Assembly: GCA_029689965.1 (NCBI GenBank)
Contig: CP121450.1
Span: 2,046,001-2,110,000, forward strand
Source: Curtobacterium flaccumfaciens
GTDB lineage: Bacteria > Actinomycetota > Actinomycetes > Actinomycetales > Microbacteriaceae
Direction of reading: 5' to 3'
DNA: 64,000 bases
Both the position numbers and the translations under genes were made by a program. This document shows positions 5,653 through 23,913 of the stretch, in pieces (the stretch's first letter is position 1; each line of letters opens with the position of its first letter). The notes below the pieces were generated by a model. It was not told the DNA's origin, searched no databases, and worked only from the letters and a program-made list of their open reading frames with translations.

Positions 5653-6071
5653 AGGACGCGCCGGTCGCTGCGGATCCACTCGGGTCCGGTCCGGCGGCGT
5701 TCGGACGGGAGGCACGACACCCCCTGGCAGGTGGCCGTCGCGTCGCCGACGTGGTCGCCACGATCGCGCTGCTGGTCGTGCTGGCCACCGAGTCGGTGGT
5801 CGCCGGTGGCGGGATCGTGTTCCTCTCGCTCGCGTTCAGTTCGTGCGACGTTCCCGGCAACACCTGCAACGAGACGCTCGGCGGAGCGGTCGTGTACGTC
5901 GGACCGGTGCTCGTCGCGCTCGTCCTCGTCACGACGCTGGTCGTCTGCGTGCTGCGGCTGGTGCGGCGTCGGCTGTCGTGGCCGTTCGCGCTGGTGGGCA
6001 TCGCGGCGGTCGTGGCGGTGTTCTTCGGTGCGATCCTGCTGGTGGACAGCGCGATCACGCGCGGCATCTGA
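5649..6071 (+). CDS. Small membrane protein coupled to the DoxX-like gene
   Basis: This 140-residue protein of unknown family has about three or four membrane segments (residues 33-57, 72-95 and 106-128) and a polar N-terminus of about 30 residues. A pair of cysteines (CDVPGNTC) lies in the first external loop and could form a disulfide. I chose GTG 5649 because it overlaps the preceding TGA by four bases. The coupling suggests it works with, or is at least expressed with, the DoxX-like protein. The frame is intact. Confidence 0.65.
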   Translation: MKDAPVAADPLGSGPAAFGREARHPLAGGRRVADVVATIALLVVLATESVVAGGGIVFLSLAFSSCDVPGNTCNETLGGAVVYVGPVLVALVLVTTLVVCVLRLVRRRLSWPFALVGIAAVVAVFFGAILLVDSAITRGI

Positions 6072-7414: not shown

Positions 7415-8878
7415 TCAGACGTCCCGGTGCTCGTGCTGGTGCTCGTGCGGACGCTGCACCTGCGTCGGCTCGGTGACGAGCCCCGTCGGCGCCTTCTCGG
7501 CCTGCTTGCGGCCGTGCGTGAACCACGTGACGATCCAGAGCAGGATGCCGAGCGCCAGCAGGGCACCCGCGATCTGGTACTGCTGCGGGTCGCGCCCGGA
7601 CGAGAACGGCAGCACGAGCCACAGGCAGGTCACGACCCCGATGATCGGCACGACCACCCCGGCGCGGAAGTGCCGGTGCTCGACCCGGTCGCGCCGCAGG
7701 ACGAGCACCGCGGCGTTCACGACCGCGAACACCGACAGCAGCAGGAGCGAGGTCGTGCCGCCGAGGACGACGACGATGGGGACTCCGGGTCGAGCGACAC
7801 CCAGCCGATCAGGGCGAGCGAGATGAGCGTCGTGAAGACGATCGACGTGGACGGCGTCCGACGGGTGGGGGAAACCCGCGACAGGAACCCCGGCAGCACG
7901 CCCTGCTTGCTCATGCCGTACAGCAGTCGTGACGCCATCATCATGTTGATCAGGGCCGTGTTCGCGACGGCGAACATCGAGATGAACGGCAGCAGGTCGG
8001 CGATCGGGAAGTCCGGCGCGGCGGTCTGCACGACCGTGACCAGCGGCGTCTCGTTGCCGGCCAGCTCGCCGATCGGCACGACGGCGACGGCGCAGATCGA
8101 CACGAGCACGTAGATCAGCGCGGTGATGCCGAGCCCGGTGAGCATGACCTTCGGGAAGATGCGCGACGGGTCCTTCGTCTCCTCCGCCATGTTCACCGAG
8201 TCCTCGAAGCCGACCATCGCGAAGAACGCCAGCGACGTGGCGGTCGAGACGGAGAGCAGGAGCGTCTTGTCCTCCGGTGTCTCGAACATCACGACGCGGG
8301 AGAAGTCCGCGTCGCCGCCCGCGATCGCCCAGAAGCCGATGAGGATCACCATGACGAGACCGGACAGCTCGACCAGGGTGAGCACGACGTTCGTCTTCAC
8401 ACTCTCGCTGACACCCCGGAAGTTGATCGCCATCACAGCGAGCATGAAGCCCATCGCGATCAGCATCACGACGGCGTTCGGCAACTCGAGGCCGAAGCCG
8501 GCGCCCAGGTTCGCCGCGAAGGCGCGGGACGCGGTCGACGCCGACGTGATGCCCGAGCACATGACGATGAAGGTGACGATGAACGTCACGAAGTGGATGC
8601 CGAACGCCTTGTGGACGTAGAGCGCCGCCCCGGCCGTCTGCGGGTACTTCGTGACGAGCTCGAGGTACGAGAACGCCGTCAGCAGCGCCACGGCGAACGC
8701 GATGAGGAAGGGGAGCCACGCTGCTCCGCCGACCTCGGCCGCGACCTGACCCGTGAGGGCGTAGACGCCGGTGCCGAGGATGTCCCCGACGATGAACAGC
8801 AGCAGGAAGCTTGGGACCGATGACCCGCCGGAGCTCGGTCTGCTCCTGCGGCGGGTGCTCTGTGTTGGTGGTGGCCAT
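7415..8878 (-). CDS. APC-family amino acid permease with His-rich tail
   Basis: This transporter of about 487 residues has 12 hydrophobic segments. Helix 1 carries FIVGDILGTGVYALTG, the middle has FFAMVGFEDSVNMAEE, and helix 8 contains the sequence NMMMASRLLYGMSKQG. These place it in the APC superfamily, distinct from the permease at 3270. The C-terminus ends in HEHQHEHRDV, a possible metal-binding tail. Two compensating frame breaks (near 8815 and 7785) put the middle in another frame while both ends share one. That is what two independent single-base errors would give. The gene is divergent from the acidic protein at 9011. Confidence 0.85.
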   Translation of the reverse strand: MATTNTEHPPQEQTELRRVIGPKLPAAVHRRGHPRHRRLRPHGSGRGRGRRSSVAPLPHRVRRGAADGVLVPRARHEVPADGRGGALRPQGVRHPLRDVHRHLHRHVLGHHVGVDRVPRLRGEPGRRLRPRVAERRRDADRDGLHARCDGDQLPGCQRECEDERRAHPGRAVRSRHGDPHRLLGDRGRRRGLLPRRDVRDTGGQDAPALRLDRHVAGVLRDGRLRGLGEHGGGDEGPVAHLPEGHAHRARHHRADLRARVDLRRRRRADRRAGRQRDAAGHGRADRRAGLPDRRPAAVHLDVRRREHGPDQHDDGVTTAVRHEQAGRAAGVPVAGFPHPSDAVHVDRLHDAHLARPDRLGVARPGVPIVVVLGGTTSLLLLSVFAVVNAAVLVLRRDRVEHRHFRAGVVVPIIGVVTCLWLVLPFSSGRDPQQYQIAGALLALGILLWIVTWFTHGRKQAEKAPTGLVTEPTQVQRPHEHQHEHRDV

Positions 8879-12818: not shown

Positions 12819-13868
12819 TCAATCGGACAGGAGCACGCCCCGCAGGTCGTACGCCGCCGGGACCTCGAGCTGCTCGAAACCGCACGACCGCGCCTCGCGG
12901 TCCGGCCGCCACCGTTCGAACTGGACCGTGTGCCGGAACCGGTCGCCCTCCATCTGGTCGTACCGCACTTCGAGCACGCGCGACGGATCCAGCCGGACGA
13001 ACGACGTGTCCCGACCCGACGAGAACCGCGACCGTTCCCCTTCGCCGGTGACGTGCCTCCCGTCCGCGTCCCGGAGGGCCACCCGGTCGAGCTCGTCCAC
13101 CAGCTCGACCCGTCGTCTGTCGGAGAAGGCGGAGACGCCGCCGACCTGACGGAGCTCGCCGTCCTCGCCGTACAAACCGACGAGCAGGGATCCGACTCCG
13201 GTGCCGCTCTTGTGCACGCGGTAGCCGATCGCGACGACGTCGGCCGTCCGATGGTGTTTCACCTTCAGCATCGAGCGCTTGTTCGGCTCGTACGGCTTCG
13301 CCCGGGGTTTCGCGACGATGCCGTCGAGACCTGCTCCCTCGAAGGTGGTGAGCCAGTCGCGGGCGAGGTCGACGTCGAGGGTGGTGCGGGTGACGAAGAG
13401 CGGGTCGGCGAGGTCGGACGCCAGCTCCTCGAGTCGTGCGCGCCGCTCGTCGAACGGCTGGTCGAGCAACTCGGTCCCGTCGGCGGCGAGCAGGTCGAAC
13501 GCGACGAACTGCGCGGGGGTCTCCTCGCTAAGCTTCGCGATCCGGGACGCCGCCGGGTGGATCCGTTGCGACAGTGCGTCCCAGTCGAGTCGTTCCGCCC
13601 CGGGCTCACCCGAGCGCAGGACGACCTCGCCGTCGAGGACGACCGGGTGGTCGCGGCCCGCGAACTGCGCGCGGAATGCCGCGACGAGCTCCGGGAAGTA
13701 ACGGGTGAGCGGCTTCGCGCCGCGGCTGCCGATCTCGATGTCGTCGCCGTCGATCGTCACGATCCCGCGGAAGCCGTCCCACTTCGGCTCGTACCGGAGG
13801 CCACCACGCACGCTGTCCGGTTCGGGGACGGTGGCGACGGCCTTGGCGAGCATCGGTGCGATCTCCAT
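12819..13868 (-). CDS. ligC: ATP-dependent DNA ligase, LigC/LigD-ligase type
   Basis: This 349-residue enzyme has the adenylation domain followed by an OB fold. The nucleotidyl-transfer motif I is EPKWDGFRG with the AMP-linked Lys29. Other motifs are DGEVV (motif III region), FVAFDLLA, GLDGIVAKP (motif IV) and MLKVKHHRTADVV (motif V). Length and order fit the stand-alone LigC of actinobacteria, which joins ends in an NHEJ or repair pathway. With the LigD-like polymerase on the other strand it forms a split NHEJ toolkit. The frame is intact. A LigD-ligase name would be equally fair. Confidence 0.9.
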   Translation of the reverse strand: MEIAPMLAKAVATVPEPDSVRGGLRYEPKWDGFRGIVTIDGDDIEIGSRGAKPLTRYFPELVAAFRAQFAGRDHPVVLDGEVVLRSGEPGAERLDWDALSQRIHPAASRIAKLSEETPAQFVAFDLLAADGTELLDQPFDERRARLEELASDLADPLFVTRTTLDVDLARDWLTTFEGAGLDGIVAKPRAKPYEPNKRSMLKVKHHRTADVVAIGYRVHKSGTGVGSLLVGLYGEDGELRQVGGVSAFSDRRRVELVDELDRVALRDADGRHVTGEGERSRFSSGRDTSFVRLDPSRVLEVRYDQMEGDRFRHTVQFERWRPDREARSCGFEQLEVPAAYDLRGVLLSD

Positions 13869-13949
13869 ACGGCCTGTCTACTCGCGCCGTCGCGCTCGTC
13901 TGCCCGGTCTCGGAAGTGCCCCTTGCCGATCGGCTCGAGACGTCGGATA

Positions 13950-13969
13950 CTGGTAAACCGATTTACCAG
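13950..13969 (+). promoter_or_regulatory. LacI-family operator overlapping the ribosome binding site
   Basis: CTGGTAAACCGATTTACCAG has perfect 8-base half sites (CTGGTAAA/TTTACCAG) around a central CG, the classic LacI-family operator form. Its last bases are shared with the AGGAGG Shine-Dalgarno of the gene starting at 13981. The regulator gene lies at the end of the same gene row, so autoregulation is likely. Confidence 0.9.
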
Positions 13970-13980
13970 GAGGATCGACG

Positions 13981-14942
13981 ATGATTCCGTCCCAACCCAC
14001 CAGCCTGCCCGGGAGCTACCGACCGCTCGGTTCCGTGCTCACGGCCGACGACTTCGACACCGGGATGAACGGGTGGCTCGACCTGCGCCCGAACTTCGTG
14101 GGCCCCGACTTCGCCGCGCACTCGCACGAGATCGACCTCGAGCACTGGGGGCCGGTCATGCTCAGCTCGGCTACCTTCGCGTTCTCGGGGACCCACGGTT
14201 CCGCATCCGGCACGTACTCGCTGAAGCTGACCTCGCGGAGTCCTGCCGCCCCGCCGGAGCAACCTCCGGCGAGCGGGTCGATGAGCCTCGCCATCAAGCG
14301 GCTCGCGGTCCCGCGCGACGCCGTCCGGATCCGCGTCGAGGCCGTCGTCGCGTACACCACCGAGCAGGACCGGCCCGGGCTCGGCGTCGACGCCATGCGG
14401 GCGTTCGGCATGTTCGTCGACCTGCAGGACGACGAGTGCCGGTACATGCCCGGTGTGCGCTACGTCAACACGGCCGGAGGTGAACCCGTCCGTCGGTGGC
14501 AGTACTTCGACCGGACGACGTCCACCGACGCCGAGTGGAGCTACGGGGTGGACGGCTGGCACCGGGCCGGCATCGACCCGCAGTGGTACGGCGAGCGGCG
14601 GCCCGACGGTTCCACCTCGGGCACGGCGTGGTTCGGCGATGGTGCGCAGGGCCTCATCTACAACGAGACGGACGACAAGGTCAACTGGATGCCCGTCGCA
14701 CTCGAGATCGACCTCCGGACCCGAACCTACGTGGCGTTCGAGGCGAACGGTCGCGCGTTCACGTTCCCCGCGGGAGCGGGTCCGACCCAGGCGTCCACCT
14801 ACCGGAACATCGACCGGTTGCTGAACCCCGTGTTCTTCGTCGAAGCCGACGGAGACCGCCGGGTCTCGCTGTTCGTCGACTCCGTCGTGGTGTCGTACAC
14901 GACCGGAGCTGACGAGCTCGAGCACGCCGGGGAGCCCGATGA
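13981..14942 (+). CDS. Beta-rich protein of unknown function, first gene of a LacI-controlled module
   Basis: About 320 residues without signal peptide or membrane segment. It opens with TADDFDTGMNGWLDL, like the first strand of many jelly-roll carbohydrate-binding or lyase folds, and is rich in Trp, Tyr and Phe: RRWQYFDR, SYGVDGWHRAG and NRIDRLL-type strands. I infer a cytoplasmic beta-sandwich acting on, or binding, a sugar-like substrate, and I do not recognise a named family. In the given sequence the frame does not stop here but runs on into the transporter. The next gene starts at ATG 14939, and a TGA at 14940-14942 would end this gene with an ATGA overlap if one base were missing upstream. 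The end is therefore inferred. Confidence 0.65.
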
Positions 14943-15268
14943 GAGCCTTCCACACCGTCGTGACGGATCTGCGCCAGCGTTTCACGGACACGATCGAGAC
15001 GTTCCCGACCGAGTGCGGCTGGGCCGACGAAGCCGTGTTCTTCGTCGCCGTCGAACAGGACACCGCCGCGAGGATCTCGCTCCGCGTCCAGATCAGCCCC
15101 GACGGCCTGCGCTGGCTCGACGAGGGCACCGTGCTCCACCTCGACGGCACGCCCGCCGGCTTCGCGCGCGTCCGCCACTTCGGCGGCTTCCTGCGGCTCG
15201 TCGGCACCATCGACGGTGTCGCGGGTCACGAAGCCGTCCTCACCGTCCGCGTCGCACTGAAGGGATGA
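14939..15268 (+). CDS. Small beta-rich protein of unknown function, second gene of the module
   Basis: This 109-residue protein begins MRAFHTVVTDLRQRF and alternates strands typical of a discoidin-like or tail-fibre-like beta-sandwich (RISLRVQISPDGLRWLDEG, VRHFGGFLRLVGTIDG). It has no signal peptide. It overlaps the previous gene's probable stop (ATGA) and its own TGA overlaps the transporter start (ATGA), so it is tightly coupled to both. The frame is intact. Function is unknown; a partner subunit of the first protein is the simplest reading. Confidence 0.7.
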   Translation: MRAFHTVVTDLRQRFTDTIETFPTECGWADEAVFFVAVEQDTAARISLRVQISPDGLRWLDEGTVLHLDGTPAGFARVRHFGGFLRLVGTIDGVAGHEAVLTVRVALKG

Positions 15269-16531
15269 CGCCCGTGCCCAAGACCATCACCCGAGCCACC
15301 ATCGCCTCCACTGTCGGGACCGCCCTCGAGTGGTACGACTTCACCCTGTACTCCACGGCTGCCGCGCTCGTGCTGCCCGCGGTGTTCTTCCCCTCCGGCA
15401 ACACCGCGAGCGGACTGCTGGCCTCGTTCGCGACCTTCGCCGTCGGGTTCGTCGCACGCCCCATCGGCGGTGTCATCATCGGCAACCTCGGCGACCGGTT
15501 CGGCCGTCGGGGGATGTTGTTCCTCACCCTGCTCCTGATGGCGGGCAGCTCGACCGCGATCGGACTGCTCCCGTCCTACGCTGCCGCCGGTGTCGTCGCG
15601 CCCCTGCTGCTGGTCGTGCTCCGGGTGGTCCAGGGATTCGGTGCCGGCGGCGAGTACGCCGGCGCGACACTCCTCGCCGCTGAGCACGCGGACACCGAGG
15701 TCCGTGGTCTCAACGCGAGCATCCCCGCCGTCGGGAACGCCGCCGGCTCGCTGCTTGCCACCGGCGTCTTCGCCCTCACCGCCGCGCTCACCGGCAGTGC
15801 GTTCACGGAGTGGGGCTGGCGCATCCCGTTCCTCATCAGCATCGCGGTCGGTGTCGCCGGGTTCATCATCCGGTTCTCGGTCGCCGAGAGCCCGGAGTTC
15901 ACCCGGTCCGAGGAACACGGTCCGACCCCCAGGGTGCCCATCCGGGAGCTGTTCCGCTCGGCGCGATCGCGGATCCCGTTCGCGATGCTCGCCAGCATCG
16001 GTCCGAACGTGGCGAGCTACCTGCCGAACGTGTACGCGCTGTCCTACCTGACGACCACCGTCGGCGCGCCGACCTGGGTCGGACTCACCGGCATCATCAT
16101 CGGCAACGCGTTGAAGTTCATCACGATCCCGACGGCGGGGCGGATCGCCGACCGGATCGGACGACGGCCGGTGTTCCTCGCCGGGGCGATCGGTACCGGG
16201 GTGCTCGCCTTCCCGTTCTTCTTCCTCCTCGACAGCGGGACCCCGATCCTGATCTGGCTCGCGATCGTGCTGGTCTTCACGCTGTGCAACGACGCGATGC
16301 TCGCAGCGCAGTCGGCGTTCATGTCGGAGCTGTTCGACGTCCGGCTGCGCTACACCGGTGTCACGTTCACGCGTGAGATCCCCGGCGCGGTGATCGGGGG
16401 CACGCTGCCGTTCGTCGCCGCCGCGTTGACCACCCTCGCCGGCGGGACGTGGCTCGTGTCGCTCTACACCCTGGTGCTCGCCGCCGCGGCGGCTGCGGGC
16501 ATGGCGCTCCTGCCCGAGACACTCCGGGTGA
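15265..16531 (+). CDS. MHS-type MFS transporter of the LacI-controlled module
   Basis: This transporter has 12 membrane segments. The N-terminal signature TALEWYDFTLYSTAAALV and GNLGDRFGRRGMLF mark the metabolite:proton symporter (MHS) branch that imports organic acids, osmolytes or shikimate-like compounds. ATG 15265 overlaps the preceding stop. The protein should end after LLPETLR. A TGA at 16529-16531 lies one frame away there. In the given sequence the frame instead reads on through LacI without a stop. I take that as an indel near 16525 and not a transporter-regulator fusion. Confidence 0.8.
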
Positions 16532-16569
16532 GTCAGGGACGCGGCGGGGCACCCTGGCAGAGTAGGACC

Positions 16570-17601
16570 ATGGCGGGCGAGCACGGGCAGCGATCCCGAC
16601 CACGTCTCGTGGACGTCGCGTCCGCCGCCCGGGTCTCGCCCGCCCTGGCATCCCGCGTGCTCCGAGGCGATGACACGGTCCGGGTCGCGGAGGACACCCG
16701 CGCCCGCGTCCGCCGTGTCGCGGACGAGCTCGGGTACGTGCCCAACGCGGCCGCACGGCACCTCCGGACCCGGCGGACGGGCTTGATCGGTGTGGTGGTC
16801 CACGACCTGAGCAGCCCGATCTACACCCAGGTGTTCGCCGGCGCCCGTGAAGCGGCCGAACGCCGTGACTACCTGACCGTGCTCGGTGACGCGGACGAAC
16901 TGCTCACCAGTCCCGCGACGTTCCGTGCCTTCGTGTCCGAGCGACGCGTCGACGGACTCGTGGTGCAGGCCGGGCACAGCACGTTCGACGCACGTGTGCC
17001 GGAGATCGCCGAGCAGATCCCGATCGTCGTCTTCAACGCGCCGGTCGATGCCACCGACGGCGGTCCGACGGCCCCGAGCGTGCCGTCCGTCTACCCCGAC
17101 GAGGTGGCCGCCGCCGAACTGCTCACGGAACACCTGCTCGCGCGCGGGCACCGCCGCATCGGGTTCGTGTCCGGGCCGGCGGACTCGGTCACGACCCGGC
17201 TCCGCCTCGACGGCGTCCACGCAGCGCTCGCCGCCGCGGGGGTGTCCACCGACGTCGTCTGCCGCTTCGGCGACTGGACGGCCATGTCGGGTCGAGCGGA
17301 GGCGGACGCGCTGCTCCTCGCTCCGGAGCCGCCGACGGCCATCGTCGCCGCGAACACCCTGATCGGTGCGGGAGCAATCGCCTCAGCAGCGGCGAACGGA
17401 CTCCGCGTCCCCGACGACGTCGCGGTCGCCGCGATCCACGATGCCTGGATCGCTGACGTGCTGGTCCCGTCGCTCACGACCGTGGCGTTGCCCCTGCGCG
17501 AGGTCGGATCGCGTGCGGTCACCCTCCTGCTCGACGGCGGCCCGGGCACGACGCTCGTCAGCGACCCCGCCCCGAGGCTCGTTCCGAGGGCATCGACCTG
17601 A
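16570..17601 (+). CDS. LacI-family transcriptional regulator
   Basis: This 343-residue regulator has an N-terminal helix-turn-helix (RLVDVASAARVSPALASRVL) and the hinge segment YVPNAAARHLRT. A periplasmic-binding-protein-like ligand domain follows (TGLIGVVVHDLSSPIYTQVF, RRIGFVSGP and VPDDVAVAAIHD). It likely represses the module from the operator at 13950-13969 and is released by the substrate or a breakdown product. The ATG at 16570 gives the normal family length. The frame is intact within the gene. Confidence 0.9.
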   Translation: MAGEHGQRSRPRLVDVASAARVSPALASRVLRGDDTVRVAEDTRARVRRVADELGYVPNAAARHLRTRRTGLIGVVVHDLSSPIYTQVFAGAREAAERRDYLTVLGDADELLTSPATFRAFVSERRVDGLVVQAGHSTFDARVPEIAEQIPIVVFNAPVDATDGGPTAPSVPSVYPDEVAAAELLTEHLLARGHRRIGFVSGPADSVTTRLRLDGVHAALAAAGVSTDVVCRFGDWTAMSGRAEADALLLAPEPPTAIVAANTLIGAGAIASAAANGLRVPDDVAVAAIHDAWIADVLVPSLTTVALPLREVGSRAVTLLLDGGPGTTLVSDPAPRLVPRAST

Positions 17602-17671
17602 CGGGTGGCGATCGCCGACCTGGAGGCGCGGTTCGGCTCGGCTCGGCCGGTCGCGTCAGTAGGGTGGTCGC

Positions 17672-18708
17672 GTGACGACCGTGCCCCCGCCGGCAGCGCC
17701 GGCACCGGAACCGATCAGCCCCGTGCAGGCCGCCGCGCTCCGCGACGGCGTCCTGCCGCCCGTCGAGCGGGTCCGGTCCGGGTCTGGACCCTCGCGGTGC
17801 CCTTCCGGTTCGGCGTGCCGGACGCGACCCTCGTCTACGTGCTCGAGGGCTCCGACGGCTCCCTCGCCCTGATCGACCCGGGCTGGGCGTCGGACGACGG
17901 ACTCGAGGCGCTCCGGGATGGGTTGACCGCGATCGGCCGGTCCCTCGAGGACGTCGGGCTCGTGGTCGTCACGCACCTGCACGCGGACCACCTCGGCGCC
18001 GCCGCCGCCGTCCGTCGCGCGACCGGTGCCCGGGTCGCGATGCACCGCCTCGAGGTCGAGGCGCTCCACCGGGAGCGCGAGGACGCCGTGGCGAACGACG
18101 CCGACATCGCGACGTGGGGGCTGCCGGATGACCTGCGCTCCGGCGTGGTCGAGGCCTGGGGGAGCGGTCGGCGCATCGGGCTCGGTCGGACCGCCGAGCC
18201 CTTCGCGGACGTGCTCCTCGAGGACGGGACCTGCTCCCCGTCGCGGGGCGCAGGCTCAGGACGCTGTGGACCCCGGGCACGCCACGGGGCACTGCTGCTT
18301 CGTCGACGAGGCCGGGGGCTCCTCTTCACCGGCGACCACGTCCTGCCCGGATCAACTCCGGGATCGGACTCGGCGGTCGGACGTCGACGAACCCGCTCGA
18401 GGACTACCTGGCCTCGCTCGGGCGCCTGGACCGGTACGCCGACCTCGAGGTGTGTCCGGTCACGAGTACCGCTTCCGGGACGTCGTCGCGCGCGCCCGGA
18501 CCCTGGTACGGCACCGCGAGGAACGGTCACGGCACGTGGCCGAGGCCCTCGACGCGCTGGCGGGTCCCACGCTCTTCGAGGTCGCGGCACGCGTGCCGTT
18601 CAGCGGCGGGATCGAGTCCATGTCGGGCTTCCTGCTGGCCAGCGCGCTGACGCAGACCGCCTACCACGCCGCACTGCTCGGCCGCGCCGGCGAGATCCGC
18701 CGGGATGA
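17672..18708 (+). CDS. Metallo-beta-lactamase-fold hydrolase, several frame breaks
   Basis: The hydrolase starts at GTG 17672 (MTTVPPPAAP). The metal motif is VVTHLHADHLGAA (HxHxDH), preceded by LALIDPGWASDDG. Later parts in other frames carry the third ligand region TPGHATGH, LLFTGDHVLPG and CPGHEYRFRD, and a helical C-terminal domain. The fold fits glyoxalase II-like or SdsA-like hydrolases; nothing indicates beta-lactam cleavage. At least four frame breaks lie near 17780, 18235, 18350 and 18455. The end at 18708 is the TGA seven bases before the convergent gene's stop and is inferred. Confidence 0.7.
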
Positions 18709-19532: not shown

Positions 19533-21166
19533 TCAGCGCTGTGCGCGACGGCGGCGCAGCGTGCGTGCGCCGATCAGGCCGACGCCGGCGAGGACGAGGC
19601 CGAGGGCCCAGGGAAGGGCACCCGTCGCATCGGTGCCGGTGTAGGCGAGGCGGCCCGCGCCGGTGTGGTGCACGGCGACGGCTGCGGGCTCGACCGGCGT
19701 GACGACGGCAGGCACCGCGGTCGGTCGGACGTCCACGGCGAAGCTCGTGCTCGGCAGTCCGGCGCCGGACACGGTCAGGGTGTGCGTCGACGCGTGCGGG
19801 AACGTGACGCTCACGACACCGAGCTCACCGAGGTCGGAGTCTGGTTCGATCACGTCCGACGCGACGTCCGAGGTGACGGTCGGCGTGAAGACGATCGGCT
19901 CGTCCGTGTCCTCGTCGAAGTCCGGGAAGATCGTGTTCCCGAAGCGGTCCACCTTGGATCCGCCGACCAGGAGGGTGCCGCCCTGCGCCACGGTCACCTG
20001 TCCGCCCTTGACGGGTTCGTCGTCGCCGAGGAGGTCCTCGGTGTAGACGTCGCCGTTCGGGTGGATGATCCACGCGCTGGTCGCGGTCCCCGCGAGCAGC
20101 GCGTCCTTGTCGACGGAGACCACCTCGATGCCGGAGGGCGCCCCGGCCTCGACGCCGATCCAGCCGTACTGGTCGCTCGTGACGTCGCCCGACGTGGTCG
20201 TCGTCGTCGCGGTGACGTCGAACGAGTAGGAGCGCTCCGCGTCGGTCAGCGTGCCGGACAGGACGCCGGTCCTCGGGTCGAACCGGACCCGGCTGGTGCC
20301 GAGGTCGGGTCGCCGTCCTCCTCGTCGAACCAGGTGATCGAGAGGGTCGGGGCGGGGGTGCTCAGGGCGCGGAAGGTGTACGAGAACGCCTCGCCGGCGG
20401 TCGCGTCGATGAACGGGTCGCTGTCGTCGTCGGAGAGCGGCTGGCCGTCCTCGTCGACGAAGACGGGAGCCACCGCGGTGTCCGTGGTGTCCCTCGCGGT
20501 CTCGCCCACGACGGAGCCCTCGAGCGTCACCGTGATGCGCTGACCGGCGAGGGCCGGCTCGATCGTGTAGGCGGCGCTCTCGGAGAGCGTCCTGCCGGCC
20601 TCGTCGGTCCAGAGGTACGAGATCTTGCTGCCGGAGGTGAAGCCCGTCGGCTCCGCGACGAGCTGCGAGCCGACGAGCAGGTCGCCCGTGATGACGACCG
20701 ACTGGACGGCGGCCAGCCGGACGGACTTCCGGGGCTGCTCGTCGTCCGTGCCGGTGGCGGGCGCGGTCGTCGCGTCGCCGGGGTGCCCGGTGCCGGGCGC
20801 CTCGGTGTCCGTACCACCGACAGTCGGGGTGCCCGCGTTCGGCTGGGGCTCGACGTCGGTGCCCCCGGTGGGTGCCTCGTCGCCGGCGTCACTGGTGACG
20901 CCGTCCGCAGCGGGTGCGCCGTCGGCAGCGCCGGAGCCGGTCGTGGTGGTGCCGTTCGACGCCGTGCCGTTCGAGGTCGTGTCGTCCGACGTCGTGCCGG
21001 CCGATCCCGTCGTCGCCGGGGCGGTGACGGTCGGGACGGTCTCCGCGATGGGCGCGGCGGACGCGGCGGTCGCGGTCATGATGCCGAGGCCGGTCGTCAG
21101 ACCGACGAGCGCGATGGTGGTGCCGGCCGCGCAGGCGCGGCGGACGGCGGAAGTGCTTCGGCGCAC
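19533..21166 (-). CDS. Cell-wall-anchored surface protein with LAYTG sortase signal
   Basis: The protein has a signal peptide (MRRSTSAVRRACAAG...ASAAP), then a long Thr/Gly/Ser/Asp-rich spacer (about 40-150). An Ig-like domain (KISYLWTDEAGRTLSESAAY) and a putative cadherin-like Ig domain (AGEAFSYTFRA ... GVLSGTLTD) follow. The C-terminus is a sorting signal: LAYTG, hydrophobic helix, RRRRAQR. LAxTG is used by class E sortases of high-G+C actinobacteria, so the protein should be linked to peptidoglycan. One frame break near 20305 splits the gene inside the second domain. It is a paralogue of the next gene in architecture. Adhesion is the likely role, inferred from domains only. Confidence 0.8.
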
Positions 21167-21318
21167 GGGTTCCCCCAGGTGGTCCAGGTCCGGTCGGGTG
21201 CCGGATCGTAAGAATCTGCCGAGAATTCTCGGCCCTGCTCGGATCGTAGAGCGGCGGGCGCGCGGGGACGAGAGCGCCGTCCGGAATGTGACCAGGGTTG
21301 GGGGTGCGTGACGGCAGA

Positions 21319-21354
21319 CTGGAGGCGCGGTGCGGTCCCGCCACGCGCCTCCAG
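21319..21354 (-). terminator. Hairpin between the two surface-protein genes
   Basis: Perfect 11-base arms CTGGAGGCGCG/CGCGCCTCCAG (21319-21329 and 21344-21354) with an imperfect inner stem. The arms have the same sequence as those of the palindrome at 33081-33118. Confidence 0.6.
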
Positions 21355-21366
21355 CCCGTCAGGTGG

Positions 21367-22672
21367 TCACCGGAGCCGTCGGCGCAGGCGCCAGGTGAGG
21401 AGACCCGCGCCGGTCGCGAGCAGCCCGAGCGCCCATCCGACCGCACCGGACTCGTCCGCACCGGTGTAGGCGAGCGTGCCGGTGTCGGTGTCGGTGCCGG
21501 TGCCGGTGCCGGTGCTGATGGTGGTCGTGTCGGTGGTGCGCACCGGAGCGGGGACGCGACGGGGCTGACGTCGAAGCGGAACCCGGTCGACAGGTTCCCG
21601 ACCGCGACCGCGACGTCGTGGGGGACGCGTGCGTGAACGTGATCTTCCAGCTGTGGTCACCCGGTACCCACTCGATCAGGTCGCCGGCCACGCTGCTGGT
21701 GACCACGGGGCGCGGATCTTCCGGGCCGTTCGGGCCGTCCGCGGCGTTGCCGGCCGCGTCCTGCCGGTAGGCGTGGATGAAGAACGAGTCTCCCTGCCGG
21801 GCGGGGATCGCGGCGACCGTCGAACCGTCCTTGAAGGACTGGATGGTGCCGTCCGCGATGACCCAGCTCAGTCCCAGCCCGGACTGGCCGGTGGCGACGT
21901 CGGCCATGACCTTCGTCGGCGTTCCGTGCGGGACCCAGATGTTCACGTACTGGACGGCGCTGTGGTGACCGTCGGTGGCCGTGACCTCGAACGGGAACAG
22001 GGCCGAGGTGGTCGGTGTGCCGCTCAGCACCCCGGTCTGCTCGTTCCACGTGACGTCACCGGGGACGCCGGACAGCGGGTTGAACAGGTACTCGAGGGGG
22101 CCGTCCCCGCCGGTGGCCCGGAAGGTGTGGGAGAACGCCTCGCCGGAAGGGGCTTCGAGCGACAGCGGCTCGTCGGGAGTCGTCGCCTCGGCCCAGGTGA
22201 TCGGTGTGACGGCTGCAGGGGTCTCGTCGTCGGCGGCCTCCGGGTCCTCGCTCGGGTCGACGGCCTGCGTGCCGGTGGAGGGGACGGCGTCGTCCGGCGC
22301 GGTCCCGTCCGCCGGTTCGGCGTCCTGTTCGGTGCCCTCGTCGTCGGCCGTCTCGTCCGTCGCCGAGTCCGATGCCGGCGTCTCGTCGACCGTCGCCTCG
22401 TCCGCGGGCGTCCCGTCGCTCGGCGTCGCGCTGGACGTCGTGATCCGACTGTCCGCGGCGGAGCTGTCCGCGGCCGGTTCGGTCGGCTGCGGTGCGGCCG
22501 TGTCGGCCCCGGTGCGGACGGAGGTCGCCGTGCCGGAGGTGCCGGTGGTGTCCGACGTGTCGGCGACGGCGGCACTGGTACCGAATCCGATCATGGTCGA
22601 GACGGCGACGAGCGCGACGGTGGCGCCGACCGCTGCGGTGCGCCGGAGTGCCGGCGGTGTGGACTGCTTCAC
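21367..22672 (-). CDS. Second cell-wall-anchored surface protein with LAYTG signal
   Basis: It starts with the signal peptide MKQSTPPALRRTAAVGATV and has a long acidic Ala/Thr/Asp/Glu-rich spacer (about 40-160). A putative Ig domain follows (PSGEAFSHTFRATGG ... TGVLSGTPTTS), then a second beta domain and a (TG/TD)n run just before LAYTG. A hydrophobic helix and a basic tail RLRRRLR close it. This is the sortase-E substrate plan of its neighbour; the spacer probably spans the wall. Frame breaks near 21625 and 21555 lie in the low-complexity part. A hairpin separates it from the downstream paralogue, so the two may be regulated separately. Confidence 0.8.
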
Positions 22673-22929: not shown

Positions 22930-23833
22930 TCAGTCGCCGACCACGGCGGCGGCGCGTTCCAGGGCGTCGCGCAACGCGCGTACCGCGGGCGACGACGAGC
23001 CGGCGGTCCGGACCACGGTGAAGATGGTCCGCCGTGGGTGCTCCGGTAGCTCGACCAGCCGACACGTCGTCGTCCGACCCGTCCACATCAGGTCCGGCAT
23101 CAGGCTCACGGCGTTCCCGGACTCCACCAGGCGGATCTGCGTCTGCAGGTCGGCGGTCTCGTAGCGGACGTCGGGCTCGAAGCCCCAGCGACGGCAGACC
23201 TGCTCGGCGAAGTGCCGCGACGCCGTGCCGCGCGGCTCCATCACCCAGGGGAGCGCCTCGGCGTCCTCGATGGAGGAGACGGGCGCGAGCGCGGTGTCGA
23301 CCGGGGGCAGGGCCAGCCGGACGGCATCCGTCGTCAGGTCCTCGCGGTGCAGGCCCGGCAGTCGTGGGGCGGCGTGCGCCGGGTACTGCTCGGCGATGAC
23401 CATGTCGAAGTCGCGCACCCAGGTCTCGTGGAGCGCGGTCTCCGGCTCGCGCTGGACCATCTCGATCCGGACGTCCGGGTGCTCGGTCGCCATGGCGTGC
23501 AGAGCGTTCGGCATCAGGGCGAGCGCCGCCGACTGGAACACGGCGACCCGGACGCGGCCCTGCACCGTGGGCATGGAGTCCTCGACCAGGGACTGTGCCT
23601 GCTCGAGCACGTCGAGCACGTGACCGGCCGCCTGGACGAGCACCTCGGCCTGCGGGGTGAGCTGCAGCCGCCGTCCGGCCTTCCGGAGCAGCGGGACGCC
23701 GGCCTCGCGTTCGAGCGCGCTGAAGCTGCTGCGAGACGGCCGACGGGGTGAAGTTCACGGCCTCGGCGACGGCGGCGATCGTGCCACGGATCGAGAGCTC
23801 CCGGAGCAGGACGAGGCGGCGGACATCGAGCAC
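22930..23833 (-). CDS. LysR-type regulator divergent from putA
   Basis: The winged helix-turn-helix at the N-terminus begins LDVRRLVLLRELSIRGTI and ends at FTPSAVSQQL. The ligand domain follows (GRVRVAVFQSAALALMPNAL, AVSLMPDLMW). About 300 residues, normal for LysR. I take GTG 23833 because it begins exactly at the family start. One extra base near 23740 (AGCTTCAGC for AGCTCAGC) breaks the frame in the third helix. The divergent start lies 80 bases from putA, the usual place of a LysR regulator that controls its neighbour, possibly in response to proline. Confidence 0.85.
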
Positions 23834-23913
23834 GCTGACACTGTAGCTCTGCTGAACAGTACCCGTCACGAACCGTTGCTTCCGCTGATGGGTCGGGCGC
23901 TCCACACTGATCC

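Follow-up and report, generated by a model that had tools for sequence, protein, structure and literature searches.

A 64 kb stretch of the Curtobacterium flaccumfaciens genome (GenBank assembly GCA_029689965.1, contig CP121450.1, positions 2,046,001 to 2,110,000; hereafter the window), taken from a one-contig genome of 3.84 Mb with a listed completeness of 65.5%, contains a 3.7 kb island at window positions 13914–17604. The island carries four genes only, which encode a DUF6772 protein, a small DUF6385-like protein, a transporter resembling metabolite/H+ symporters (MHS) and a LacI-family repressor. With somewhat better than even confidence, we consider this island a complete, horizontally gained, LacI-controlled uptake-and-use cassette, whose only dedicated enzyme would be formed by the DUF6772 and DUF6385-like proteins (the pair). 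Such a cassette probably enables the host, an actinobacterium of a soil or plant type, to import and degrade one specific compound resembling a sugar. An earlier reading made from the sequence alone had proposed an inducible, uncharacterized catabolic module at this place, an idea that is supported by the present analysis and strengthened by the conservation of the gene set, the island and the single operator.

Genes, island and operator

All four genes lie on the plus strand. They were compared across a set of 35 loci with 40 DUF6772 copies, which includes the window and comprises 30 actinobacterial loci and five loci on alphaproteobacterial plasmids; among them are a locus from Frondihabitans (L014) and one from a metagenome-assembled genome of Herbiconiux (L015). 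The first gene (13981–14939, 3′ end uncertain, without in-frame stop) encodes a protein of about 315 amino acids (aa) that is a clear member of DUF6772 (PF20562; E 2.8e-75, 253.6 bits at a cut-off of 27, residues 12–306 on profile positions 13–282 of 284). The protein of the second gene (14939–15268, 109 aa) reaches 19.1 bits with DUF6385 (PF19912; E 1.3e-3) and thus stays below the cut-off of 26.8, as do three of the six relatives scanned (20.3, 18.4, and 17.9 bits), the other three lying above it (30.4, 29.3, and 28.2 bits). It scores 108 bits with a DUF6385-like profile that was built without it from 24 members of the same loci. Judged by these comparisons, it is a diverged relative of DUF6385 and is named DUF6385-like only. 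The statement of the sequence-only reading that the first two proteins match no family was therefore not upheld. Both Pfam families are named only, and searches of NCBIfam and PHROGs yielded no match for either protein. In accordance with the same reading, neither protein has a hydrophobic N-terminal stretch (by eye) that would indicate a signal peptide.

For the transporter (15265–16569, 3′ end uncertain), TIGR00883 was the best of the models listed (377.5 bits, residues 18–408; cut-off of 443.45 not reached), and the Pfam family Sugar_tr was matched well above its cut-off (117.2 versus 22.3 bits). The protein is therefore best described as an MHS-like member of the major facilitator superfamily (MFS), its subfamily being not proven. 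The next best models, those of shikimate, ProP and tricarballylate transporters, make an acid or zwitterion seem likelier as its substrate than a neutral sugar. The last gene (16570–17601) encodes a LacI-family repressor with a helix-turn-helix domain (PF00356, 42.2 bits, cut-off 27) and a sugar-binding domain (PF13377, 101.8 bits, cut-off 26.5). Both the transporter and the regulator noticed beforehand are therefore present.

None of the seven congeners compared at this site, out of eight probed with genes from the neighbourhood, has an equivalent of the region from 13.91 to 17.60 kb, whose bounds are alignment ends and accurate to about 50 bases on either side. In six of the seven (L071–L076) the aligned flanking blocks are only 22–120 bases apart. 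In the seventh (L077, 4748–7359), the flanks enclose a different segment of 2.55 kb, in which an MFS-type gene (480 aa) and a gene of the helix-turn-helix type were identified by eye, and the gap between the flanks may be a preferred landing site. The guanine plus cytosine content of the island is 70.4%, that of the flanks 72–74%, and none of the 20 repeat families listed for 13860–17720 is a direct repeat joining the island ends. Within the genus, DUF6772 was found in one of 66 genomes, namely the one studied here. The respective numbers for the family, order and phylum are 6 of 398, 16 of 396, and 1 of 396 genomes, which are even samples instead of full counts and all include the host genome; an initial search, using the one DUF6772 protein against relatives, had given 2 of 59. 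On this comparative basis, the island is apparently a horizontally gained and mobile cassette of the LacI type.

The operator proposed for this cassette, TGGTAAACCGATTTACCA, is an 18-base palindrome at 13951–13968, in which eight of nine base pairs match. The final operator base doubles as the initial A of the Shine-Dalgarno sequence AGGAGG (13968–13973, plus strand, upstream of the ATG at 13981), confirming the near-perfect LacI operator overlapping the Shine-Dalgarno sequence that had been noticed initially. Directly upstream lies a putative promoter on the plus strand (13923–13951; −35 TTGCCG, 17-base spacer, −10 GATACT, hexamers picked by eye), the −10 box of which the operator overlaps by one base. 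Palindromy alone is unremarkable, as the 64 kb contain 11 such 18-mers with a central CG; what sets the operator apart is an AT-rich sequence of LacI type, together with its location and conservation. When up to three mismatches were allowed, the window contained this one match at an expectation of 0.01 (100 shuffles). A scan of the host genome, which had been suggested as a check of the module, likewise returned 13951–13968 as the single place in 3.84 Mb, with no match for a control pattern read backwards. Since no second operator was found in the host genome at this threshold and no other gene was seen to be co-regulated, the regulator looks local to its cassette.

Similar sites are found in front of the two orthologous operons. 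The Frondihabitans operator, TGGTAAATCGATTTATCA, is identical to that of the window at 16 of 18 positions, and the Frondihabitans genome contains one site with three mismatches to the operator pattern. The Herbiconiux operator, TGATAAATCGATTGTTCC, was picked by eye, shares 12 of 18 positions and fails the palindrome filter. By eye, both operons also show the same promoter geometry (TTGCGT-17-TATGCT in L014, TTGACG-17-TACAAA in L015) with the operator directly behind it, and the recognition-helix regions of the three LacI proteins are similar (SPALASRVL, SPALVSRVL and SAPLASRVL). A further 27 DUF6772 copies were checked for upstream sites; none of the TGGTAAA type passes the filter, and some of these copies have different palindromes instead. 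Binding of LacI to the operator and its release by a ligand are proposed on the grounds of these comparisons.

Reading frames of the four genes

The frame starting at the ATG at 13981 is open over 1206 codons up to the LacI stop at 17599–17601. Of the chain of 4-base overlaps described in the sequence-only reading, the ATGA between gene 2 and the transporter (15265–15268) is present, whereas the stop assigned to gene 1 (TGA, 14940–14942) is out of the frame of this gene. The transporter has no in-frame stop ahead of the LacI ATG either. Overall, that reading had thus been right about the operator, the overlap of gene 2 with the transporter, the transporter and LacI, but not about the end of gene 1 and the family status of the first two proteins.

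To judge the frames, genes of at least 120 aa from congeners were mapped to the window with tblastn, with matches of at least 60% identity covering half of the gene being counted. Genes split over more than one frame in the window numbered 5 of 12, 6 of 13, and 6 of 13 for three congeners, compared to 0 of 13 between two congeners; examples are found at 7418–8865, 17782–18700, and 22945–23857. Inspection of three relatives (L014, L015, and one L016 copy) showed that in each of them the last four bases of gene 1 are shared with gene 2. The corresponding ATGA as well as a TAG ahead of the LacI ATG exist in the window one frame off. Because indels are this frequent in the assembly and the relatives have the overlap of genes 1 and 2, the absent stops are most likely assembly errors. 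More generally, many conserved genes between 6166 and 25065 are split over frames as expected for an indel-rich assembly, and annotations of this genome need caution.

If the long frame were real, it would encode either a membrane-bound regulator of 778 aa made up of transporter and LacI or a polyprotein from DUF6772 to LacI. Apart from the open frame itself, this would fit the Frondihabitans locus (L014, 8450–8786), where the transporter frame runs past the LacI ATG at 8590 without a stop and continues to 8786. However, gene 2 lies in a different frame between the parts, the missing stop signals exist one frame off, transporter and LacI of Frondihabitans are in different frames and not fused, and the Herbiconiux transporter stops at 5770, ahead of the LacI region. 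A fusion is accordingly very improbable, and the 1206-codon reading was set aside on the indel census. The unterminated transporter frame in both the window and Frondihabitans reflects either coincident errors or a conserved overlap. In both stretches (window, 16480–16572; L014, 8450–8786), a TAG is located one frame off just ahead of the LacI ATG.

A similarly small chance is given to a decayed island with truly frameshifted, non-working genes. Decay would be in keeping with the missing ends of genes 1 and 3 and with the host being the only DUF6772 carrier among 66 genomes of its genus. Otherwise, however, the coding sequences are uninterrupted and align with their relatives along their length, the operator and promoter geometry persist, and broken frames are equally common in conserved neighbour genes.

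Conservation of the pair and its neighbourhood

In 39 of the 40 copies, distributed over 35 loci from two phyla, the DUF6772 gene is followed by a DUF6385-like gene on the same strand, and in 38 cases the two are directly adjacent. In the one intervened pair (L018), a gene for a flavin adenine dinucleotide (FAD) oxidoreductase (Pfam) lies in between. The exception to the pairing is a third DUF6772 copy in L019 (16354–17411), which is frameshift-split and followed by a LacI-type gene in two frames. Loci that did not contribute to the gene 2 profile (window, L021, L047, L056, L061, L028, L031, L036, L037, L040, and L078–L083) all hold both genes as well, with L031 and L036 being repeats of places in L053 and L061 that were counted once. 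An annotated relative from Chelatococcus daeguensis lies outside these locus counts.

Of the 30 actinobacterial loci, 28 include a LacI gene within the stretch compared, and only L061 and the 3.3 kb locus L037 lack one. Since these loci also supplied the LacI profile and the compared stretches reach up to 20 kb, closeness weighs more than presence here. The alphaproteobacterial plasmid loci all have the pair (5/5) and none has a LacI gene (0/5); the four annotated ones contain a FadR/GntR regulator. An MHS-type gene is close to the pair and LacI in 7 of the 35 loci (window, L015, L016, L017, L020, L053, and L082), not counting L058 and L059, where such a gene is 5–8 kb away. All four genes in one order and on one strand were only observed in the window, L015 and L020, the other two genomes being those of Frondihabitans and Herbiconiux. 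The orthologues of the window cassette are about 70% identical and share its gene order and a similar operator. The sequence-only reading had let its proposal depend on the four genes being conserved together, and this is what the two other genomes and the seven loci show.

The type of transporter varies among loci and includes, besides the MHS type, dipeptide-type and sugar ATP-binding cassette (ABC) transporters. Dipeptide-type ABC genes (c6) accompany the pair in ten loci, six of which also have a gene of the endonuclease/exonuclease/phosphatase family (c11). A histidine phosphatase gene (c14) occurs in four of these six and in L047. Sugar ABC genes together with a putative alpha/beta hydrolase gene (c10) characterize seven loci (L053, L056–L060, and L062). 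Other neighbours in some loci are genes for FAD oxidoreductases, mannitol-type and zinc dehydrogenases and AP_endonuc_2 proteins. The four annotated alphaproteobacterial plasmids carry genes for an enolase-superfamily protein (mandelate racemase/muconate lactonizing enzyme), a short-chain dehydrogenase/reductase (SDR/KR) type protein and sugar ABC permeases, in one case also for an SMP-30 lactonase. The two of these enolase-superfamily proteins that were scanned are nearest to sugar-acid dehydratases, yet below every curated cut-off shown, and the best PDB relatives of one of them are 4ggb/4hpn, structures of galactarolactone cycloisomerase. By gene content, the pair appears to keep to sugar or sugar-acid type loci, with no single substrate suiting all of them. 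In L054 (147–9872) and L055 (4104–12079), the pair is found with an FGGY carbohydrate kinase gene (Pfam, L054), an RpiB-like gene (by eye) and sugar ABC permease genes, a neighbourhood reminiscent of tetritol/pentitol pathways.

In a tree of 33 DUF6772 proteins, the window copy groups with those of L014, L015 and one L016 copy (support 100/99). This group of four joins nine others (13 rows, 100/100), of which seven belong to the alpha/beta hydrolase loci. The root of this tree serves for drawing only and long branches elsewhere make its deeper order unsure. Two DUF6772 sub-types occur within one cluster in L016, L018, L019, and L053, where they may represent two steps of one pathway.

Possible function of the pair

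The following course of events is proposed for the cassette. LacI would sit on the single operator over the −10/+1 region and block the whole operon, its own gene included. Trace amounts of the substrate would enter via the MHS-type symporter, and the substrate or a product of it would release LacI and thereby induce the transporter and the pair. The DUF6772 and DUF6385-like proteins would be cytosolic partners, most likely the large and the small subunit, respectively, of a single enzyme that performs the sole dedicated step, i.e., the conversion of a sugar acid or glycoside-type substrate into a compound for housekeeping enzymes. Catalysis by the pair is suggested above all by economy, as a gained cassette that brings its own switch and importer but lacks any further enzyme would hardly be useful unless the chemical work is done by the pair or can be left to housekeeping enzymes. 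Naming uronates or plant acids as the substrate is a guess, although the MHS-type transporter and the acid-sugar-type enzymes of the alphaproteobacterial loci point the same way. Slightly short of an even chance is given to a wider proposal, in which proteins of the DUF6772 and DUF6385 families would make up a two-subunit carbohydrate-active enzyme of a new cytosolic class. Together with a single transporter and a single repressor, this enzyme would suffice to make a compound accessible to catabolism; bacteria would exchange the set as a 3.7 kb plug-in cassette, and the transporter sub-types would correspond to different substrates.

The type of system is familiar, whereas the protein pair is not. 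Like local catabolic operons of the lac type under LacI/GalR control, the cassette combines one operator at the promoter with a transporter, an enzyme candidate and the repressor in the same unit, but an unstudied two-protein pair takes the place of the known hydrolase or kinase. Two unstudied families hence form a near-obligate pair in two phyla, located beside uptake genes in most loci read. The window contains the smallest form seen, consisting of transporter, repressor and pair, which makes the function of the pair directly testable. Should the proposal be true, a new carbohydrate enzyme class would aid the annotation of plant- and soil-associated bacteria.

Structure prediction, another check suggested with the initial reading, succeeded for the second protein but not for the first. 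The AlphaFold2 model of the DUF6385-like protein, calculated from a three-sequence alignment, is a jelly roll (predicted local distance difference test, pLDDT, 84.3; predicted template modelling score 0.74), in line with the beta-sandwich that had been guessed. Its structural matches are numerous but of intermediate strength and come from mixed families (best Foldseek E 1.5e-3; VIA Z at most 11.7), and therefore no function can be derived from it. As this generic fold is near to carbohydrate-binding modules (CBM), GOLD domains, protease P-type domains and fibre proteins, the pair might instead be non-enzymatic, binding sugar or acting as a scaffold in the cytosol, and either assist a housekeeping catabolic enzyme or buffer the ligand. 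The start motif of DUF6772, DDFD-G--GW, would also fit this explanation, since it aligns with CBM4/9 (PF02018) over 16 columns (E 0.009–0.011, probability about 4–4.5%), a short match somewhat above the reversed control (0.31) and absent from the hmmscan results. We nevertheless regard a mere binding pair as rather unlikely, because the island has no other enzyme and no second operator was found, which would leave a transporter without dedicated catabolism seen here, and because DUF6772 has many invariant charged residues. Over 33 sequences from two phyla, 23 of its residues are invariant, many of them charged and including R107, E120, D147, R154, R160, N163, N228, E229, K233, and N235.

C-glycoside deglycosidases (DgpBC/CarBC) consist of a large and a small beta-type subunit and are encoded beside oxidoreductases, the large subunit being a triosephosphate isomerase (TIM) barrel. 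The 3-keto-disaccharide hydrolases (PF06439, DUF1080) are all-beta carbohydrate enzymes with a concanavalin-like fold. A pair acting in either manner, as a two-subunit C-glycoside deglycosidase or a 3-keto-glycoside lyase/hydrolase after an oxidation step, would be in keeping with its division into a large and a small subunit and with the FAD oxidoreductase, zinc dehydrogenase, SDR or TIM-barrel (AP_endonuc_2) genes near it in some loci. When the failed DUF6772 model was used for Foldseek, only weak matches to concanavalin-like lectins and lyases were obtained (template modelling score to query about 0.2–0.3). The island, however, contains no oxidase, the fold hint comes from a model with a pLDDT of 36, and profile comparisons were non-significant for both families. 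These hhalign comparisons included 10 sequences of 3-keto-disaccharide hydrolases, 14 CBM4/9 entries, 8 CGDB entries and 41 DUF6385-like rows, with reversed profiles (E 0.093–0.35) and column shuffles from an earlier run (E 0.15–0.85) as controls. The DUF6385-like profile gave E-values of 0.08 with the hydrolases, 0.024 with CBM4/9 and 0.03 with CGDB; the small deglycosidase subunit (PF19906) is absent from the Pfam hits of the window protein and aligned with this profile at E 0.03 with a probability of 1.7% over 16 columns (reversed 0.093). Values beating the controls span 13–44 columns at probabilities of at most 4.5%, which is too little for use. PF06439 was not listed for any of 27 DUF6772 members at E up to 10 within the HMMER filters, and hmmscan of these members against Pfam returned, besides DUF6772, only Ntox14 (best E 0.013, 2/27), a match taken as chance. 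A deglycosidase or 3-keto-type function is consequently viewed as less probable still than a binding pair.

Several observations weigh against the enzymatic cassette favored here, and our confidence in it stays near one half because housekeeping enzymes might suffice instead of the pair. Enzymes needed for the pathway may also be encoded outside the island and be controlled differently. The conserved polar residues of DUF6772 would suit a binding protein, too. Its AlphaFold2 model, based on the alignment of the window, L014 and L015 proteins, is unusable at the pLDDT given above, a PDB sequence search with a profile of 27 relatives yielded no match at E 10, and hhalign gave nothing usable (PF06439 E 0.13, reversed 0.35; CGDB 0.13). 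On the side of regulation, the consensus promoter scan rejects the window promoter, and the Herbiconiux operator, with its low identity, was not found in the Herbiconiux genome with the window pattern. The missing stops leave the intactness of the proteins encoded by this copy in doubt. Finally, no activity, structure or fitness datum was found for a DUF6772 or DUF6385-like protein.

Literature searches for DUF6772, DUF6385, PF20562 and PF19912 retrieved no paper and no proven function for either family in the library searched; a proven function of homologues had been named as a finding that would refute the initial reading. The listings obtained for 3-keto-glycosides/DUF1080, C-glycoside deglycosidases and Curtobacterium/LacI/MHS/operon contained nothing bearing on these proteins. 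Both the pairing of DUF6772 with DUF6385 and its link to LacI and transporters appear to be undescribed in the literature searched.

Downstream of the island, the minus strand of the window (19533–22672) encodes two secreted-type proteins rich in Thr, Ser and Asp. Their readable ends consist of LAYTG, a hydrophobic stretch and arginines and resemble those of sortase-anchored surface proteins.

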